DNA of 32,295 nt from Patescibacteria group bacterium (lineage in GTDB: Bacteria; Patescibacteriota; Patescibacteriia; UBA1558; UBA10009): contig JAHISB010000025.1 in the NCBI GenBank assembly GCA_018818425.1, positions 1-32,295 of the forward strand, in the 5' to 3' direction. The position numbers and the translations under genes are program-made. Below are positions 688 through 29,614 of the stretch, piece after piece. Numbering within the stretch: position 1 is the first letter of the stretch; every line of letters starts with the position of its first letter. The notes beneath the pieces are model-generated. The model saw nothing but the letters and a program-made list of their open reading frames with translations, was not told the origin of the DNA and searched no databases.

Positions 688-1584
688 ATGAAATTAAAAA
701 CAACCGGTCAAGAAAATTGTAGATTATCTTCCAAGCCCCGGCCCTATTGGCGCATTAATGCCAAATGGATTACGGGCATATTGCTTTTTTTTGTTCTGGG
801 CTTAACTTTGTTATTTTACAACCTGGTTCAGATAACAAGTGAACAGCCGGCTGTGGAAGCGGTAACAACAGCTTTGGCGCTTTCTTTTAGCCCCCAGGGG
901 CTGGACAATGAAACAGATGTTAATTTGTTTATTCAGCAGCTGCGGAAGAGCCCAGACGGCCGTCTTCAGCCGATCCCGGGGCTAAAAATTATTGTCGAAG
1001 AATCCGCAATTGCCGGGCTTTCGCCGAGAGAAATGCGCCTGTATCTTTTTAGGCAGATTGCCGAACCGCTTTATTGGCAGGGGCCCGAAGGCGTAATTGC
1101 CCTGGCCGATGATTCGGCAATGCAGCAGAAGCTAACAGAGGGGATAGGCCCGATCAGCATTATAACTTTAAAGACGCATCAGACGTTTAATAAAATATTT
1201 ATTGTTTTATTGATTATTTCCTTGGCCCTGTTTTTACCCCTAGTTTTCTTTAGTAATCGCTTTGGTCGCTTAGCCAGTCCGGGTTTTATTATTTTAGCGG
1301 CCAGTTTGCCCGGGACTGTTATCTTCAATTTTATCAGCATAATCTTACAGTCCAATGATATTAATCAGCCGCCGATAGAAGCAGGCGGCCTGAGCGGCAT
1401 GATCGGCTATATAGCTGCCAACGCCCTGCCTCCAATAGTATCGATTATCGCCCGCAACTATTTATTTTTTTCAATTTTAGGCCTGGGCCTTATTTTACTA
1501 GCGGTGGCAGGAAAAATAATCTGGCGGTTATGCCAAAGAAAAGCTGATCAAAAGGTTAATATTAAGCCGTCAACACAAGCTTAA
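688..1584 (+). CDS. Hypothetical multi-pass membrane protein
   Basis: ORF 670..1584; one N-terminal TM, a soluble segment, then several TM segments. Start at the internal Met (688, MKLKTTG) is at least as plausible as 670. Confidence 0.65.
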   Translation: MKLKTTGQENCRLSSKPRPYWRINAKWITGILLFFVLGLTLLFYNLVQITSEQPAVEAVTTALALSFSPQGLDNETDVNLFIQQLRKSPDGRLQPIPGLKIIVEESAIAGLSPREMRLYLFRQIAEPLYWQGPEGVIALADDSAMQQKLTEGIGPISIITLKTHQTFNKIFIVLLIISLALFLPLVFFSNRFGRLASPGFIILAASLPGTVIFNFISIILQSNDINQPPIEAGGLSGMIGYIAANALPPIVSIIARNYLFFSILGLGLILLAVAGKIIWRLCQRKADQKVNIKPSTQA

Positions 1585-7640: not shown

Positions 7641-7816
7641 TAATCGTGTATCGTGCCGATAGGCCTCGAGCGAACGGAGTGAGTCGAGAGGTATCGTGCT
7701 TGCCCGCCGAAGCCTTGGCGGAGGCGGGTATCGTGCCGGCCAAAGGCCGGTCAGCCTTTCGGCCAGAGGCCGATGGCCTATGGCTCATGGCTGGGAATAA
7801 TAAGAAAAGCGATTTT

Positions 7817-8179
7817 ATGAAATATAATGAACATTATAGTTATATAATTGGTTGTCGGTTATCTAATTTTTTATGGAAAATTGTGAAAAGATGGGATTAC
7901 TTAGACCAAGATACTTTAGGAAAACAGCTTATAAAATCCGCTGATGCAATTTCCAGTAATATTGCCGAGGGCTGGCATAGATATTATAAAAAAGATAAAT
8001 TATTGTTTTACAATTATGCCCGCAGTTCATTTTATGAAGTAATCGACCATATTAATAAAGGAATTACCAGGGGTTTGATTAGTCGGCATGAAGCGCAAGT
8101 AATTAAAGAATTATTGATACAATTTCCAAAGCCAATGAATGGCTTGATAAAAGGCGCCAAAGATAATTTAAAGAAATAA
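7817..8179 (+). CDS. Four-helix-bundle protein (S23 / 23S rRNA intervening-sequence protein family)
   Basis: LGKQLIKSADAISSNIAEGWHRYYKKDKLLFYNYARSSFYEVIDHI is typical of the family. Start set at MKYNEH; the upstream part of the track ORF is repeat-like. Confidence 0.85.
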   Translation: MKYNEHYSYIIGCRLSNFLWKIVKRWDYLDQDTLGKQLIKSADAISSNIAEGWHRYYKKDKLLFYNYARSSFYEVIDHINKGITRGLISRHEAQVIKELLIQFPKPMNGLIKGAKDNLKK

Positions 8180-8226: not shown

Positions 8227-8669
8227 TCGGGGATAGCTCAGTGGTAGAGCAACTGGCTGTAAGCACATTAAAAGTGAATGCCTTATGTCAGAAAAGCGGA
8301 AATATAAAGACAGGGCCAATTACCTTATTAAAGCATTCTTCTCTGTTCAAATTGTCATAGGGAAATTCACGGAAAAAAATTGCAGCTTTCTAAGCGAAAG
8401 CTTAGATTGAAACACAAGGTTAATTGACGGGAAGCCTAAACCTTAAGTATTTAAAGGCAAGGTAATCCGCAGCCAAGCCTCCGCCATAGGTGGAGGAAGG
8501 TTCAGAGACTAGAGCGTAAGCTCGTACTGTCAAGCTTAACTTGATGGGAAACGCCTTGTATCTAAGTCGAGCAAAGCTCGATATGATAATGAGATAGTCC
8601 GCCCTTTAGAGAAATCTAGAGATAAGTGTAACCAGTGGGTCGTGGGTTCGAATCCCTCTCCCCGAGCCA
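8227..8669 (+). tRNA. tRNA-Thr (anticodon TGT) split by a group I intron; exons 8227..8258 and 8627..8669
   Basis: Spliced: TCGGGGA-TA-GCTC-AGTGGTA-GAGC-A-ACTGG-CT^TGTAA-CCAGT-GGGTC-GTGGG-TTCGAAT-CCCTC-TCCCCGA-GCCA. Acceptor stem is perfect and the anticodon loop is 7 nt only if the intron is removed after U33. Confidence 0.85.
8259..8626 (+). other. Group I self-splicing intron (no ORF), possibly subgroup IA
   Basis: Core elements in order: TAATTGACGGGAAGCC (P), AATCCGCAGCCAAGCC (Q), GGTTCAGAGACTAGAG (R), GAGATAGTCC (S). P2 TCTAAGC-GAAA-GCTTAGA, P3 ACAAGG (8414-8419)/CCTTGT (8554-8559), P6 CCTCCGCC/GGTGGAGG, P7 GACTA/TAGTC, P8 TCGAGC-AAA-GCTCGA, P9 CTTTAGA-GAAA-TCTAGAG. 5' exon ends in U, intron ends in G. 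Confidence 0.9.
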
Positions 8670-8670
8670 G

Positions 8671-8706
8671 TGAAAAAAGATTAACCTTTGCGTTAATCTT
8701 TTTTCA
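8671..8706. terminator. Terminator after tRNA-Thr (symmetric, possibly bidirectional)
   Basis: TGAAAAAAGATTAAC-CTTTGC-GTTAATCTTTTTTCA. Confidence 0.8.
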
Positions 8707-8845
8707 TTTGTTTTATGATTAACAAGTTAGAGATTCGAACATCGGCAGAGTTGCCGGCAACAAGTCCGCCGTTGCCAAAAGGAATGTTGCCCTTGCCCCA
8801 GCCCTCCCGTGCGCGGGCAAGGAATTAGTACTCCCTTTGCGCCTG

Positions 8846-8875
8846 TTGACAAACATGGTTTACATATGATAACCT
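8846..8875 (+). promoter_or_regulatory. Candidate promoter for the type I RM operon
   Basis: Perfect -35 TTGACA at 8846-8851, with only weak -10 candidates in CATATGATAACCT; lies ~30-55 bp upstream of the preferred hsdM ATG at 8905. Confidence 0.4.
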
Positions 8876-8904
8876 GTATTCATTATAGCCACAAGTCACG
8901 AATT

Positions 8905-10710
8905 ATGCAAAAAGAACAAGAAAACTACATAACTACGGCGGAACTGGCTAAAATGCTTGGCATTAGCCGTGTTTCTGCGGCAAAGCGGGTTACAAAGCTC
9001 ATTAAAGAGGGTGCTGTTACGGCTGCGGAAAAAGGCAAGGGCTACATCATAGATAAGGATTCTTTGCCGGAAGAAATAAAGAACGAAATCCGCAAACAGC
9101 AGGAAGAAGCTGCTAAAAAAATCACCGAGCTTGGCAAAAAGGCAGGCAACGATCTTGAATTTGAAAAGGAGCTTTGGAAGGCCGCGGATAAATTGCGCGG
9201 CAGTATTGATGCCTCGGAATACAAGCATATTGTCTTAGGCCTTCTGTTCCTCAAGTATGTTTCTGATTCTTACTATCAGAGACGTTGGCAGTTGGAGCAG
9301 TGGACGAGCGATCCAAAGAACAAAGACTATTTTATAAAAAACGAAACGGAGAGAAAACATATCGTCAACGATAAAGACCAGTACAAGAGCACGGGAATTT
9401 TCTACATTCCGGAAAAATCCCGATGGGAGCAGTTGCGAAATCACGCAATGCACCACGATATCGGAAAATATATTGATGAGGCAATGGAAGCGATTGAAAA
9501 CGAAAATCCGAAAGAGCTAAAAGGAGTTTTGCCGAAAATTTATACAAAAACCACTCTGGATTATCAAATCCTCGGAGAGCTGGTAAACATTTTTTCAAAG
9601 ATTACATTTGACCACGATATAGATAAAGAAAAAGACATTCTCGGTCGCGTGTATGAATATTTTTTGGGGCAATTCGCGTCTGCGGAAGGCAAAAGAGGCG
9701 GAGAGTTTTATACTCCGCGCTCCATTGTGCGGCTTTTGGTTGAAGTGTTGTCGCCGTATGAAAACGCGCGCGTCTTTGACCCTGCTTGCGGAAGCGGCGG
9801 AATGTTTGTGCAGTCAAGCGAGTTCTTGAAGATGCACCAAAAAGATCCGACCAAAATTTCGTTCTTCGGGCAGGAAAGCAATCCGACAACGCTTCGGCTT
9901 TGCAAAATGAACCTTGCCATTCGCGGCATCATCGGCCAAATGGAAATCGGAAATTCCTATTATGACGACAAATTTCCTGATCTTCGCGCGGACTTCGTGC
10001 TGGCCAATCCTCCTTTTAACGCCGACTGGGAGCCGGGCCGACTTTCCGATAAAGACCCGCGCATTAAATTCGGCACGCCGCCCGGGAGCAACGCTAACTT
10101 TTTATGGATTCAGCACTTTATTCATCATCTTTCCCCCAATGGGATGTCTGGCTTTGTTATGGCAAATGGCGCGCTTGCCGTAGACGCAAGCAAGAGCGAA
10201 GGCAAAATCCGCAGGAAAATTATTGAGGAGGATTTAATTGATGTGATTATTGCTTGCCCGCCAAAGCTTTTTTATAATGTTGCACTCCCAGTTTCTCTTT
10301 GGTTTGTGTCAAAAAACAAGAAAAATGGCAGATTCCGTAACCGCACCGGCGAGACGCTTTTTATAGATGCACGAGATTTATTTGAGCCAGTCTCAGGGTC
10401 AAGAAAGCAAGTTACATTTACCAAAGAGCATATTCAGAAAATCGTTGGTGCAGTTCGCGCGTGGCGCGGAGAAAACGGTGCCGAAAAATATGCCGATATT
10501 GAGGGTTTTTGTAAGGCGACTAAAAAAGAAGAAATAATTAAAAATGGATATGTTCTTACGCCTGGACGCTATGTCGGCGTTGCCGAAGAAGAAGATGACG
10601 GCGTGCCGTTTGAGGAGAAGATGAAAAAGCTGTCCAGCGAACTCGAACAATATTTTAAGGAAAGTGAAAGGTTAGAAGAAAAGATAAAAGATAATTTGAA
10701 AAAGGTATGA
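8905..10710 (+). CDS. hsdM: Type I restriction-modification methyltransferase subunit with N-terminal HTH
   Basis: FDPACGSGGMFVQSSEF (SAM binding), FVLANPPFNADW (NPPF), N-terminal ADKLRGSIDASEYKHIVLGLLFLKYVSD; preceded by ITTAELAKMLGISRVSAAKRVTKLIKEG HTH. GTG at 8809 is an alternative start. Confidence 0.93.
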   Translation: MQKEQENYITTAELAKMLGISRVSAAKRVTKLIKEGAVTAAEKGKGYIIDKDSLPEEIKNEIRKQQEEAAKKITELGKKAGNDLEFEKELWKAADKLRGSIDASEYKHIVLGLLFLKYVSDSYYQRRWQLEQWTSDPKNKDYFIKNETERKHIVNDKDQYKSTGIFYIPEKSRWEQLRNHAMHHDIGKYIDEAMEAIENENPKELKGVLPKIYTKTTLDYQILGELVNIFSKITFDHDIDKEKDILGRVYEYFLGQFASAEGKRGGEFYTPRSIVRLLVEVLSPYENARVFDPACGSGGMFVQSSEFLKMHQKDPTKISFFGQESNPTTLRLCKMNLAIRGIIGQMEIGNSYYDDKFPDLRADFVLANPPFNADWEPGRLSDKDPRIKFGTPPGSNANFLWIQHFIHHLSPNGMSGFVMANGALAVDASKSEGKIRRKIIEEDLIDVIIACPPKLFYNVALPVSLWFVSKNKKNGRFRNRTGETLFIDARDLFEPVSGSRKQVTFTKEHIQKIVGAVRAWRGENGAEKYADIEGFCKATKKEEIIKNGYVLTPGRYVGVAEEEDDGVPFEEKMKKLSSELEQYFKESERLEEKIKDNLKKV

Positions 10711-11552
10711 AAAAACAATCAAAAAACAAAGTCATCGCGATTTTTGAAGGCAAAACAATCCGCCGCCATTGGGATGCGGAAAAAGAACTTTGGTATTTTT
10801 CGGTAGTTGACGTGGTGGGCGTGCTGAGCGCGAGCGACGATCCTAGAAACTATTGGAAAGTGCTGAAAAGCCGTCTAAAACAAGAAGGAAGCGAGGTGGT
10901 TACAAAATGTAACCAACTGAAAATGCGGGCCGCTGACGGCAAATTCTACCTAACCGACGCGGCAGATACAGAAACCATGCTTCGACTCATTCAATCAATC
11001 CCTTCGCCTAACGCTGAACCATTTAAACTCTGGCTCGCTCGTGTTGGGTATGAACGGCTGGAGGAAACAGCGGATCCGGAACTTGCCATCAACCGAGCGC
11101 TAAAAACTTATTTACAAAAAGGATACAGCCCGGAATGGGTGAACCAACGGCTCAAAAGCATTGAAATCAGAAAAGCGCTGACAGATGAATGGGAAAAGCG
11201 CGGCGCAAAAGAAGGCGTTGAGTTTGCGATTCTTACGGATGAAATATCCAAAGCATGGGCGGGATTGACGACGAAAGAATATAAAAACCTCAAGGGTTTA
11301 AAGAAAGAAAACTTGCGCGATAATATGACGAACCTTGAGCTGGTATTGAATATGTTGGCCGAAACCGCGACAACGGAAATTTCTCAAAAGCGCGAACCGA
11401 AAAATTTTCCGGAAAACCGCCAAGTCGCCCGCGAGGGCGGCACTGTTGCCGGCCATGCCCGCAAAGAAATTGAATCCAAAACCGGCAAGAAGGCAATCAC
11501 GAGAAAGAACGCCAAACAGCTTCGCGGCGGTGAGAATAAGAAGTTAAGATAA
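10707..11552 (+). CDS. Bro-N domain / DinD-like protein
   Basis: Bro-N-like N-terminus (WYFSVVDVVGVLSASDDPRNYWKVLKSRL..) and DinD-like C-terminus (NRQVAREGGTVAGHARKEIESKTGKKAITRKNA). ATGA overlap with hsdM. Confidence 0.8.
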   Translation: MKKQSKNKVIAIFEGKTIRRHWDAEKELWYFSVVDVVGVLSASDDPRNYWKVLKSRLKQEGSEVVTKCNQLKMRAADGKFYLTDAADTETMLRLIQSIPSPNAEPFKLWLARVGYERLEETADPELAINRALKTYLQKGYSPEWVNQRLKSIEIRKALTDEWEKRGAKEGVEFAILTDEISKAWAGLTTKEYKNLKGLKKENLRDNMTNLELVLNMLAETATTEISQKREPKNFPENRQVAREGGTVAGHARKEIESKTGKKAITRKNAKQLRGGENKKLR

Positions 11553-11553
11553 T

Positions 11554-12768
11554 ATGACCACGCAAACTAAAACAACTTGGCGGAAGATGAAGTTGGGGGA
11601 GGTGCTTTCTGTTTCTGGTGGCGGCACTCCAAGCACTCATAATTCTGACTACTGGCATGGTGAAATTCCGTGGCTTACTCCAGCGGAAGTTTCTGGATTT
11701 TCCAGTCGCTTTATTGATAAAACAGGGCGAAATATTTCTAAACAGGGCCTCAAACATTCTTCTGCAAAATTAATGCCCGAGGATTCATTACTCCTAACCA
11801 GCCGCGCCACAATTGGGGATGTTGTAATAAATAAAGTTCCGATGGCAACCAATCAGGGCTTTATAAATATTGAGCCAAGCAGCGAAGTTGATCAGATGTT
11901 TCTATTTTATTGGCTCAAGCGCAATCATGATTATTTCAATCAAATTGCGGTTGGTTCAACATTCCCAGAATTAATAAAATCAGTTTTTAAGGAAATTGAG
12001 ATTGAACTTCCAAGTCTGACGGATCAAAAACGCATCGCCAACATTCTTTCCGCTTTTGATGACAAGATTGAGTTGAATAATAAAATCAGCCAGACGCTGG
12101 AGCAAATGGCGCAGGCGATTTTTAAGGAGTGGTTTGTAAATTTCAAATTCCCCGGCCATGAAAAAGTAAAAATGGTTGATTCTGAATTAGGAAAAATTCC
12201 GGAGGGATGGGAAGTGAAGTCTCTTGATGAGATTGCTAACTTTTTGAACGGTCTCGCATTGCAAAAGTATCGTCCAAGTAACGATCGAGACGTTTTGCCC
12301 GTAATTAAGATTCGAGAAATGAACAATGGTATCGATAAAAACACCGAACTTGCCAGCTCAAGTATCGATGAAAAATACAAAGTTAAAGCAGGCGATATTC
12401 TTTTTTCTTGGTCTGGAAGTCTAGAATTGATGCGTTGGACCGAACGGACGGGGGCACTAAATCAACATCTCTTCAAGGTAACATCAGAAAATTATCCCAA
12501 TTGGTTTTTCTATTACTGGATACAGAGGCATTTATCCTTTTTTAGGGTAGTTGCTAGTGGTAAGGCGACTTCAATGGGACACATTCAGCGGCATCATTTA
12601 TCGGAGGCATTAGTTGTCGTCCCACGGCAAGAAATTCTTGATAAGGCAAACGATCTTATTTCTCCAATGTTTAAAAACATTCTTGAATTAAGAATGGAAA
12701 ACCAAAAATTATTCGCGCTCCGCGATTTGCTTTTGCCAAAATTAATGAGCGGGGAAATAAAAGTATGA
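11554..12768 (+). CDS. hsdS: Type I restriction-modification specificity subunit
   Basis: Two TRD halves: KLGEVLSVSGGGTPSTHNSDYWHGEIPWLTPAEV and PEGWEVKSLDEIANFLNG, with conserved coiled coils (LTDQKRIANILSAFDDKIELNNKISQTLEQMAQAIFKEWF). Confidence 0.93.
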   Translation: MTTQTKTTWRKMKLGEVLSVSGGGTPSTHNSDYWHGEIPWLTPAEVSGFSSRFIDKTGRNISKQGLKHSSAKLMPEDSLLLTSRATIGDVVINKVPMATNQGFINIEPSSEVDQMFLFYWLKRNHDYFNQIAVGSTFPELIKSVFKEIEIELPSLTDQKRIANILSAFDDKIELNNKISQTLEQMAQAIFKEWFVNFKFPGHEKVKMVDSELGKIPEGWEVKSLDEIANFLNGLALQKYRPSNDRDVLPVIKIREMNNGIDKNTELASSSIDEKYKVKAGDILFSWSGSLELMRWTERTGALNQHLFKVTSENYPNWFFYYWIQRHLSFFRVVASGKATSMGHIQRHHLSEALVVVPRQEILDKANDLISPMFKNILELRMENQKLFALRDLLLPKLMSGEIKV

Positions 12769-13406
12769 AGAAGAAAATCCAACCATTTAGCAGAGATTTA
12801 AAAATGCCGCGTCTTTATCGCGATGACTTAGAGTCGATAGAAAAGATCATCAAAGATAAGTTGAAACCTAGAGAATACAAGCTGGAAACCAAAGATTTTG
12901 AATATGATGAGCTTGGAACAATCCCGAAAAACAATACACCGATTACAGATTTTCATATTCAGACTCACAGCCCATACATAAGTATTGACTTCAATAGGTT
13001 TAGTGCGCAGATTTATGCAGGCGATGATGACTTAAATACGACCGGTGCGTTGTTTAAAATTAACGATATTCTCTCAAAGAAAGAGAGGAAAGTTTTATTT
13101 TGGTCTCAAAAAATCGCAGTATGGCTTGCTCCGATATTATTCATTGCACCAATCCAAGCACTAACAGAAATCGGAGAGATAAAATCAGTTAAGCATTGGG
13201 TTGCGCTTGGCATGGCGTTTATCGCTGCAATTTGGTGGATAGTGAGTTTTCACTCGAGCATGCATCGGTTTTCGGTAATCACACTTGTCTCTTTCGAAGA
13301 AAAACCAGGATTTATTAGAAGGAACAAAGACCAAATTATTATTGGCTTTGTTGTTGGAATCCCAGTTGCTATTGTCAGTTTTTTATTTGGCTTATTGTTA
13401 AAATAA
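12765..13406 (+). CDS. Unknown membrane protein embedded in the type I RM operon
   Basis: 213 aa; soluble N-terminal ~105 aa, about three TM helices. ATGA overlap with hsdS stop, 3-nt gap to hsdR. Confidence 0.8.
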   Translation: MKKKIQPFSRDLKMPRLYRDDLESIEKIIKDKLKPREYKLETKDFEYDELGTIPKNNTPITDFHIQTHSPYISIDFNRFSAQIYAGDDDLNTTGALFKINDILSKKERKVLFWSQKIAVWLAPILFIAPIQALTEIGEIKSVKHWVALGMAFIAAIWWIVSFHSSMHRFSVITLVSFEEKPGFIRRNKDQIIIGFVVGIPVAIVSFLFGLLLK

Positions 13407-13409
13407 ACT

Positions 13410-16400
13410 ATGAACAAACTTAACGAAGACACATTAACCGAACAGCCGGTCATAGAATGGCTTAAGGAAATGGGCTACGACTATGAATTTGGGCCGGATT
13501 TGGCGCCGGGCCAAGTTTTGAGCGAGCGCGAAGATTTTCGCGAGGTTGTTTTGACTGGCCGCTTGAAACGATCTATTCGTCGGCTCAATCCGGACTTACC
13601 AGAGGCCACGATTGATGATGTGGTGCGAGCTATTACCAGAGTTGAACATCCGAATTTGGAAATTGCAAACAAAGAAGTTTTCAAACTGCTTACCGAAGGC
13701 GTGAAGATTGGTGTGCGCGATGAAGCTGGCGAAGAACGGGGACGGCTCGTTAAAGTTTTTGATTTTGAAAACCCCCAGAACAATGAATTTTTGGTCGTCA
13801 ATCAATTCGCGATTCAAGGATTGGAAAAAGTCCGACGGCCGGATGTGGTGGTTTTTGTGAATGGAATCCCGCTGGCAATTTTTGAACTCAAAAACCCCGT
13901 GCTTGAAAATGCAACAATCTACACTGCCTATGAGCAGCTGCGGGAGTATAAAAAAGATATTCCGGAGATTTTCAAATACAATCAGGTGCTTGTCGTGGGC
14001 GATTTAATTGAAGCGAGACACGGCACAATTTCTTCGGCGTGGGAATGGTTTTCTCATTGGAAAGGCATTGAGAGCGAGGATGAAAAGAATCATGGCATTT
14101 CCGAACTTGAGACGTTGACGCGAGGAATTTTTCACAAGGTTCGGTTTTTAGACATTGTTCAAAACTTCATTGTTTTTGAGGCAGATGCCGAAAGAGACGC
14201 AAGTAAATACACAAAAAAGATGGCGATGTACCATCAGTATTTCGGCGTAAACAAAGCCGTCAGCGAAACCTTGCGCGCCGCAAAACCCAGAGGGAATAAA
14301 AAAATCGGCGTTTTTTGGCATACGCAAGGATCGGGCAAATCGCTTTCTATGGTTTTCTACACGAACAAAGCCAAGCGGCTGGAAGAATTGAAAAGCCCGA
14401 CATTTGTATTTTTGACGGACAGAAATGATCTTGACGGGCAATTTTATAAAACATTTTTACGAAGCGGCTATTCAAGCGCGAAGCAAGCGGAAAGTGTTGC
14501 AGATTTGAAGGAAAGACTGCGCGAAGCGGCCGGCGAACTTATTTTTACGACAATTCAGAAATTTGATACTGAATACGAGGTTTTGAGCGAACGAGAAAAT
14601 ATCATTGTTGTTGCGGACGAAGCGCACCGCTCGCAGTATGCGAAATTTGCCGGCAATGTCCGCGTTGCACTGCCCTCCGCTTCTTTCATGGGCATCACCG
14701 GTACGCCGATAAGTCTGCAAAATCGCGAAACGCGACTTGTGTTTGGCGATCACATCAGCGAATACAAGATAAACCAAGCCGTAGAAGACGGTGCGACTGT
14801 GCCGATTTATTACGAAGGCCGTCTCGTGCCCTTGCACTTGACAAACCAATTTATTGATGAGGAATTTGAGGACTTGACCGGCGAGATAGAATTTGAGGCA
14901 AAAGAGGTGTATAAGCGCAAATGGGCGCGACTTGAGCAGGCTGTAAGCGCAAAGGATCGTCTGGAGCAAGTGGCAAACGATATAGTTTCGCATTTTAACA
15001 ATCGCGGGCTTGAAGGAAAAGGCATGATTGTAACGATTTCAAGAAAGACGGCAGTTGAGATGTATAAAATAATTTCAGCAATTTCGGATGCGCCGGAAGT
15101 GGCGGTGGTTATTTCAAAGCCGGAAGAATTTCCGGAACTTCATCAAAGTAGAGATACAAAAGAATTGGAAAAGAGATTCAAGAATCCGGACGATACCTTA
15201 AAGCTCGTGATTGTATGCGATATGTGGTTGACCGGCTTTGATGTTCCTTCGCTCCACACGATGTATATTGATAAGCCGCTCAAAAATCATACCTTGATGC
15301 AAGCGATAGCCCGCGTCAATAGAATTTTTAAGGACAAGCCCGGCGGTCTTATCGTGGACTATATTGGAATTGCTGACGATCTAAAGAAAGCCCTCTCAAT
15401 TTATAGCTCCGGCATCCAGAAGGAGGCGATGATACCGATTGAGGAAATTATTGCCAAGATGATGGAAAAATATGATATCGTTTGCGCGATGTTTGCCGGC
15501 GTTGAATACCAAGAATGGAAAAAACTGAAAGGTGCGGAGCCCGCACAATTACTACTTCAAGGAATGAACGCCGTTGTTACGAGTATAGATAAAAATGGCA
15601 AGGAAAGACTGGATGAAGAAAAAAAGAAACGTTTTCTTAAAGAAACGGAGTTACTGTCCCAGCTTTTTGCATTTGCTATGCCGCACAAGGAGGCAAACGC
15701 CATACGGAATGAAGTTGAATTTTTCCAAGCAGTGAAGCGCGCGGTCATCAAACGGACTATCGTTCGACCCGAAGGCATTGGTTTTGATGTTGAATCCGCT
15801 GTTCGGGAACTTGTCTCAAAAGCAATATCAGCCGAAGGCGTTATTGATATTTTTGATATGAAAGGTAAAGGAAGGCCGGATATTTCCATATTTGACGAAA
15901 AATTTTTAGAAGAAGTAAAAAATATGAAATACAGGAATCTTTCCGTGGATGTTCTTCGGAAACTCTTGAATGACGAACTCCGAGTGCGGATGAGGAAAAA
16001 TTTGGTTCGTTACAAATCGCTTCTTGATATGTTGGAAGATATAATTGAAAAATACGAAAACAATATCATCAATTCCACAAAAGTTATTGAGAAATTGATT
16101 GAATTAGCAAAGGAAATCAGGAAAGTTGAGAAACAGGGTGAAGGTATCGGCTTGTCGGAGGAAGAAATGGCATTTTATGATGCGATATCAGTCGGCCGCA
16201 AAGCAATCAACGGAAATGGAGAATTGAAGGAATTGGTACGCGAGCTTGTCAAAATTATCAAGAGAGATTTAGCGATTGATTGGATGAATAATGATATAAT
16301 CAAGGCGAGGATACGTGCGAATGTTAAGTTGCTATTGTTGCGAAAAGGATACAAAGCGGAAGAGAGCGAAAAGGTTTTGGATTTGATATATCAACAAGCG

Positions 16401-16439
16401 TTTTCGCTCTATAGAGATTTTGTGCCAGTGATGGCATAA
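13410..16439 (+). CDS. hsdR: Type I restriction endonuclease / translocase subunit
   Basis: PD-(D/E)xK-like [21 protein letters not shown], Walker [13 protein letters not shown] ([10 protein letters not shown]), [34 protein letters not shown]. Confidence 0.95.
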
Positions 16440-28321: not shown

Positions 28322-29614
28322 ATGAATAAAATTGCTATTGCTCAAGCAGCTGATTTTATTGACCAAAAAGTCAAAATTCAGGGCTGGGTTTATAACTTAC
28401 GCTCATCGGGCAGTATTTATTTTTTGCAAATCAGAGACGGCTCCGGCTTTATGCAGGCAATTATTAGCAAGTCGAATGTAGAAAGCGGTGTGTGGAAGAA
28501 ATGCGAAAAAATTACTCAAGAATCATCTGTAAAACTTCAGGGCAAAATCAGCAAACATCCCAAAAAAGAAGAGTATGAGCTTCAGGTTTCTGAATTAGAG
28601 ATTATTCAAATTGCCGAAGAATATCCGATTAGCAAAAAAGAGCACGGGCCAGATTTTTTATTGGATAATCGCCATTTATGGCTGCGTTCAAACAAGCAGT
28701 GGGCCATCATGAAAGTCAGGTATCAGGTTTTTTTAGCCCTGACCAATTTTTTTGATCAAAAAGGATATACCAGGGTTGATGCGCCGATTTTTACGCCCTC
28801 GGCCTGCGAAGGCACCACTACTTTGTTCGGAGTGGATTATTTCGATTTAGGCAAGGCCTACCTTTCCCAGAGCGGCCAGCTGTACTCCGAAGCGGCCATC
28901 AGAAGCTTAGGCAAAGTTTACGATTTTGGCCCGGTTTTCAGAGCGGAAAAATCCAAGACGCGCCGCCATCTCACCGAATTCTGGATGCTGGATTACGAAG
29001 AGGCCTTTTTAGAGCATCAGGACAATCTGGAAGTCATCGAAGACTGCCTTGTTTACGTAGCAGAACATATTTTAAATAACTGTCAAAAGGAACTGGAAAT
29101 ACTAGAAAGAGATACAGGTCCGTTAAAGAAAATTAAAAAACCATTCATCAGAATGAGCCATCAGGAAGCAGTAGAAAAACTGCATCAGCTGGGTTCAAAC
29201 ATCAAAGCAGACGACGACTTAGGCGGAGATGACGAAACAATTTTAACCAAAGAATTTGACCAGCCAATTCTCATTGATAAATACCCGGCCAAAGTCAAAG
29301 CTTTTTATATGAAAAGGGACCCTCAAGATGAAAGCCGGGCTTTGTGCGTTGACTGCCTGGCGCCTGAGGGCTATGGCGAGATTGTCGGCGGCAGCCAGAG
29401 AGAAGATGATTATCAAATTCTTTTAAAAAGACTTAAAGAACATAAATTGGCTAAAAAAGATTTTGACTGGTATCTGGATTTAAGAAAGTACGGCTCTGTT
29501 CCTTCAAGCGGCGCCGGCATTGGCCTGGAACGTTTAGTCGGCTGGTTGTGCGGCACCCACCATGTGCGGGAGACCATTCCCTTTCCGAGGATGATAACAA
29601 GATTACGACCGTAA
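28322..29614 (+). CDS. asnS: Asparaginyl-tRNA synthetase
   Basis: OB-fold VKIQGWVYNLRSSGSIYFLQIRDGSG, FGPVFRAEKSKTRRHLTEFWMLDYE, SSGAGIGLERLVGWLCG. Confidence 0.93.
   Translation: MNKIAIAQAADFIDQKVKIQGWVYNLRSSGSIYFLQIRDGSGFMQAIISKSNVESGVWKKCEKITQESSVKLQGKISKHPKKEEYELQVSELEIIQIAEEYPISKKEHGPDFLLDNRHLWLRSNKQWAIMKVRYQVFLALTNFFDQKGYTRVDAPIFTPSACEGTTTLFGVDYFDLGKAYLSQSGQLYSEAAIRSLGKVYDFGPVFRAEKSKTRRHLTEFWMLDYEEAFLEHQDNLEVIEDCLVYVAEHILNNCQKELEILERDTGPLKKIKKPFIRMSHQEAVEKLHQLGSNIKADDDLGGDDETILTKEFDQPILIDKYPAKVKAFYMKRDPQDESRALCVDCLAPEGYGEIVGGSQREDDYQILLKRLKEHKLAKKDFDWYLDLRKYGSVPSSGAGIGLERLVGWLCGTHHVRETIPFPRMITRLRP

Follow-up and report, generated by a model that had tools for sequence, protein, structure and literature searches.

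We report a group I intron of 368 nt in the window, the whole 32,295-nt stretch (contig JAHISB010000025.1, positions 1–32,295) of a Patescibacteria group bacterium that was analysed. With a probability of roughly 93%, the split gene at 8227–8669 is tRNA-Asn(GUU) interrupted between U35 and U36, would be spliced to the anticodon loop CUGUUAA, and carries an intron descended from a mobile form with an HNH endonuclease gene that is now inactivated. An earlier sequence-only reading of the same DNA had given the correct outer coordinates and intron length for a split tRNA, but had named the host tRNA-Thr(UGU) and the insertion site U33/U34. All features of the split gene described below lie on the forward strand.

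The boundaries read CUGU|AAGC...AAGUG|UAACC, and two junctions are compatible with a 5′ exon ending in U and an intron ending in G: 8258^8627, which gives the loop CUUGUAA (Thr UGU), and 8260^8629, which gives CUGUUAA (Asn GUU). The rule had been used in favour of the first junction, where it does hold, but it holds equally at the second. Of 38 genomes searched within the same order, about 20 have an uninterrupted tRNA-Asn(GUU) gene. In the matches to these genes, query positions 1–34 (or 8–34) and 403–443, corresponding to window 8227–8260 and 8629–8669, abut without a gap, which sets the junction at 8260^8629 and shifts each of the earlier exon ends by 2 nt. These empty-site genes have the loop CUGUUAA, and ARAGORN types them as tRNA-Asn(GUU). 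With introns allowed, ARAGORN also called tRNA-Asn(gtt) in the window, with i(35,368), a 368-nt intron after position 35; a plain search for tRNAs in the window missed the one at 8227–8669, as expected for a split gene. The 5′ exon (8227–8260) ends in GGCUGU at U35, and the 3′ exon (8629–8669) starts at U36 and includes discriminator G73 (8666) and an encoded CCA. An intrinsic-terminator-like hairpin with a T run (8669–8708) was marked directly after the CCA by a consensus scan.

The intron (8261–8628) begins with A8261 and has G8628 as its terminal G. Comparison with Rfam using cmscan gave a match to RF00028 over the full model at 8357–8621 (76.6 bits, E = 5.3e-18, gathering score 50), in agreement with the earlier proposal of a group I intron in a tRNA anticodon loop. 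The conserved catalytic core P3–P8 (8407–8600, from the RF00028 alignment and motif coordinates) is present with its P (~8424–8434), Q (~8464–8474), R (8499–8511) and S (up to 8600) elements. The P2 hairpin UCUAAGC-GAAA-GCUUAGA (8389–8406) appears in the unconstrained fold, and a P9 hairpin with a GAAA loop (8603–8621) in both the fold and the alignment. The 443-nt unit folds better than 100 of 100 shuffled sequences (z = –4.0). P1 also forms in the unconstrained fold, by pairing of 8255–8262 (exon GGCUGU plus intron AA) with 8380–8387, and has a U8260·G8382 wobble at the 5′ splice site. The 3′ strand of P1 contains the guide sequence (IGS) GCAGCU (8382–8387), which pairs with exon GGCUGU and places U35 in the wobble. 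For P10, the UAA of the 3′ exon pairs weakly, by inspection, with the bases 5′ of G8382.

The guide and the junction were compared with those of 57 distinct related tRNA-Asn introns, which had been selected by script for a fit to 35/36 and a terminal G. GCAGC is found in 57 of 57, at 206–330 nt before the 3′ splice site, and is complementary to the invariant loop sequence CUGU; the guide was located by a position-limited search, and an R-element-like GCAGCCA occurs elsewhere in some of the introns, including that of the window. Since both strands hardly vary, this pattern is conservation and not covariation. All 57 fit the 35/36 site as selected, and 9 of them cannot use 33/34. G73 is present in the hosts of 56 of the 57.

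Splicing at 8260^8629 gives anticodon GUU together with G73, as in tRNA-Asn. The product is identical to a relative's tRNA-Asn at 68 of 75 positions, compared with 54 of 76 for the genome's own tRNA-Thr(UGU) and 54–57 of 76–81 over its Thr tRNAs, and a particular similarity to the latter was not found. G73, earlier remarked on as slightly atypical, fits Asn. The T-T mismatch of the T stem is likewise there, and an uninterrupted relative (L034) is also unpaired at 50:64.

A tRNA-Thr(UGU) interrupted after U33, with the junction 8258^8627, would obey the same U and G rule and have a plausible Thr loop in CUUGUAA, and ARAGORN makes the same call for many relatives, in which it confuses Thr and Asn likewise. 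This reading is very improbable given the CUGUUAA loop of the empty-site tRNAs, the pairing of the conserved guide GCAG with CUGU rather than with the bases before U33, and the 9 of 57 related introns in which the junction is unusable. Intact tRNA-Thr genes for UGU, GGU and CGU are moreover encoded elsewhere in the genome, and all three have U73 where the split gene has G73. Alternative splicing at both junctions, such that a single gene would yield tRNA-Asn(GUU) as well as tRNA-Thr(UGU), is if anything slightly less probable still: in 48 of the 57 related introns either junction would have a U before the intron and a G at its end, but only the U35 site lies opposite the guide G, Thr(UGU) is already encoded, and the second option does not exist in the other 9. 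From the empty-site homologues, the guide, G73, the tRNA set of the genome and the 57 related introns, the host is identified as tRNA-Asn(GUU), with the intron between U35 and U36, inside the anticodon.

The 368-nt intron contains no complete ORF, which is the part of its earlier description as 'ORF-less' that stands; a truncated HNH gene lies within its P1 loop. A relative of the same family (G030) has the same intron at 554 nt, with a 116-aa ORF (L031:1263–1613) in the P1 loop. The 305 nt common to the two introns show 79% identity, and the 3′ exons are identical. Aligned to this ORF, the remnant in the window consists of an N-terminal part, MSEKRKYKDRANYLIK, comprising the first 16 codons (8285–8332), and a C-terminal part in another frame (8333–8427), which contains NCHREIHGKKLQLSKRKLRLKHKVN (8350–8424) followed by a stop. 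The distance from ATG to NCHR, which starts at 8350, is 65 nt in the window versus 261 nt in the relative, corresponding to a deletion of ~196 nt plus a frameshift; the first half of the HNH motif is thereby lost and the reading frame disrupted, so that an intact ORF is not present. The C-terminal remnant shares sequence with the guide, P2 and the first part of the core. Intact ORFs of relatives likewise occupy the P1 loop, and the guide is contained in their last conserved codons (TQLP or LQLS). The protein of G030 is an HNH endonuclease by its match to PHROG 2255 (E = 2.7e-25); its match to Pfam HNH is weak, and that of a sister protein is above the cut-off. Judged by this alignment, the window intron is not ancestrally ORF-less, having lost its HNH gene by internal deletion and frameshift.

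The genome is a 1.23-Mb draft in 54 contigs, 94.5% complete. No other tRNA-Asn was found among the 45 other tRNA matches in this draft, and tRNA-Gln(UUG) and tRNA-Pro(UGG) were also not found in the assembly. The gene for the enzyme that would charge tRNA-Asn, asparagine-tRNA ligase (asnS, 28322–29614, forward strand; NCBIfam NF003037, 522 bits, cut-off 414), lies in the same window 20 kb from the split tRNA. The cell thus appears, from its gene content, to depend on the ribozyme for all asparagine decoding, although a second tRNA-Asn could lie in an assembly gap of so fragmented and incomplete a draft. That the split gene is a dead, unspliced pseudogene alongside such a second copy would agree with the state of the assembly and its two other missing tRNAs, but is most unlikely: a complete tRNA, with an encoded CCA and the Asn identity base, can still be assembled from the exons, the core scores well above the Rfam cut-off, the 3′ exon has stayed identical to that of G030, and the same split gene occurs in many relatives. 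A split tRNA-Gln(UUG) gene was also considered for this genome and rejected, only tRNA-Gln(CUG) and a shared 3′ end being found. The host of this genome's second group I intron is 23S rRNA sequence, not a tRNA (L029, G000:C32, ~1008–1314, minus strand); by eye, the ORF after it looks like a LAGLIDADG homing endonuclease.

Group I intron matches were present in 175 of 389 genomes of the class, and the tRNA-Asn U35/U36 intron in at least 57 of the 389, a lower bound from the loci examined, which cover the stronger matches. Relatives of the HNH protein were scanned in one genome per species, and the best 80 loci were all inside or beside split tRNA-Asn genes. The ORF lies within the split tRNA-Asn in 77 of the 80; at one further locus (L231) the contig stops short of the 3′ exon. 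At the remaining two (L270, L271) the HNH gene is just upstream of the split tRNA-Asn and not inside the intron. The record titles of these loci include Falkowbacteria, Magasanikbacteria, WWE3, Kazan and others within the Patescibacteria, and beyond them Nitrospira (L261, L267, L272), Omnitrophota (L223, L241, L269), Elusimicrobiota (L230, L243), Acetothermia, Burkholderiales (L244) and Pyrinomonadaceae (L264). Most of the records are metagenome bins, in which misassignment is possible, and the occurrences in other phyla may reflect transfer or misbinning. Related HNH proteins were also found in 428 phage records, mostly at <60% identity. Other tRNAs of the class are interrupted as well: tRNA-Phe(GAA) genes are often split after U33 (U33|G34; L070, L071, L075, L100 and ~25–30 other loci), and group I introns are found in tRNA-Tyr (35/36) and tRNA-Met (33/34).

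Mobile introns go through a known cycle, in which invasion is followed by decay of the endonuclease and then by loss. Within the family of the window genome, the tRNA-Asn of two genomes (G031, G032) is uninterrupted. The intron is present with its HNH gene in G030, at 213 nt without an ORF in another genome (G033), and in the decayed form in the window, a pattern that seems to fit this cycle. We tentatively suggest, at somewhat less than even odds, that tRNA-Asn(GUU) U35/U36 introns with a P1-loop HNH gene whose C-terminal codons encode the guide make up an undescribed mobile family of the Patescibacteria and several other phyla, of which the window represents the endonuclease-loss stage.

Splicing would proceed as follows. 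In the precursor, the guide GCAGCU would fold onto the anticodon stem and loop sequence GGCUGU, with U35 opposite G8382. Exogenous guanosine would attack after U35, the freed U35 would attack after G8628, and the joined exons would form an uninterrupted tRNA-Asn with the loop CUGUUAA. We hypothesize that the ancestral intron was a mobile form whose P1-loop HNH homing endonuclease cut intron-less tRNA-Asn genes; endonuclease activity and target are suggested by the family and position of the protein, and cleavage of intron-less tRNA-Asn by its near-exclusive association with this tRNA. Since an internal deletion and its frameshift have disabled the HNH gene, the intron is probably now passively inherited, and since the cell needs tRNA-Asn, it would still have to splice.

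Just upstream of the tRNA, the window encodes a four-helix-bundle protein of the 23S rRNA intervening-sequence family (7646–8179), and downstream of it lies a type I restriction-modification operon (8809–16439; hsdM, a BRO-N protein, hsdS and hsdR). The tRNA was considered as the attachment site of this restriction island, which was rejected as the tRNA 3′ end was found only once in the window. In G030 (L031:1931–1949 and 2138–2163) and G033 (L032, after 1590), by contrast, the tRNA-Asn 3′ end is repeated downstream of the gene, in copies that look like relics of element integration.

The locus shows how an essential tRNA gene can acquire a homing gene and how that homing gene can decay, with the HNH gene intact in one relative, deleted in the window, and the tRNA-Asn uninterrupted in two genomes of the family. 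The split gene accounts for the seeming absence of tRNA-Asn from such genomes, and automatic tools can misname split tRNA-Asn genes as tRNA-Thr(UGU). Dependence on selfish introns could be tested cleanly in a reduced genome of this kind, which apparently requires a ribozyme for all asparagine decoding.

Bacterial group I introns are also found in tRNA-Leu(UAA) and tRNA-Arg(CCU). Like these and the introns of tRNA-Ile(CAU) and tRNA-fMet, the window intron is a short group I ribozyme in an anticodon loop; it differs in its host, tRNA-Asn(GUU), and in its site, U35/U36, inside the anticodon. Introns in bacterial tRNA-fMet and tRNA-Ile2 have been described (PMC8450103), and tRNAs with group I introns have been noted, without detail, in circularised genomes that are nearly all CPR (PMC8172020). 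A preprint by Nakagawa et al. (2025; 10.1101/2025.07.03.662931), cited in PMC12641178, announces in its title a novel group I insertion site in tRNAs of Patescibacteria; to judge from that title it shares the bacterial group and the gene class with the window, and priority for site 35/36 is accordingly not claimed here. The CPR rRNA introns (PMC11270868) are mobile group I introns with homing endonucleases from the same bacterial group, but they have rRNA hosts and LAGLIDADG or GIY-YIG nucleases, and the main text of that paper contains neither tRNA nor HNH. On sequence comparison, the window intron belongs to a widespread mobile intron family. Like this family, the tRNA-fMet intron of Synechocystis PCC 6803 (PMC3073962) has a tRNA host and, in P1, a homing endonuclease ORF that overlaps P1/P2. 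The nuclease there is of the PD-(D/E)-XK type, in contrast to the HNH type here, the host is another tRNA, and in the window the HNH gene has been deleted.
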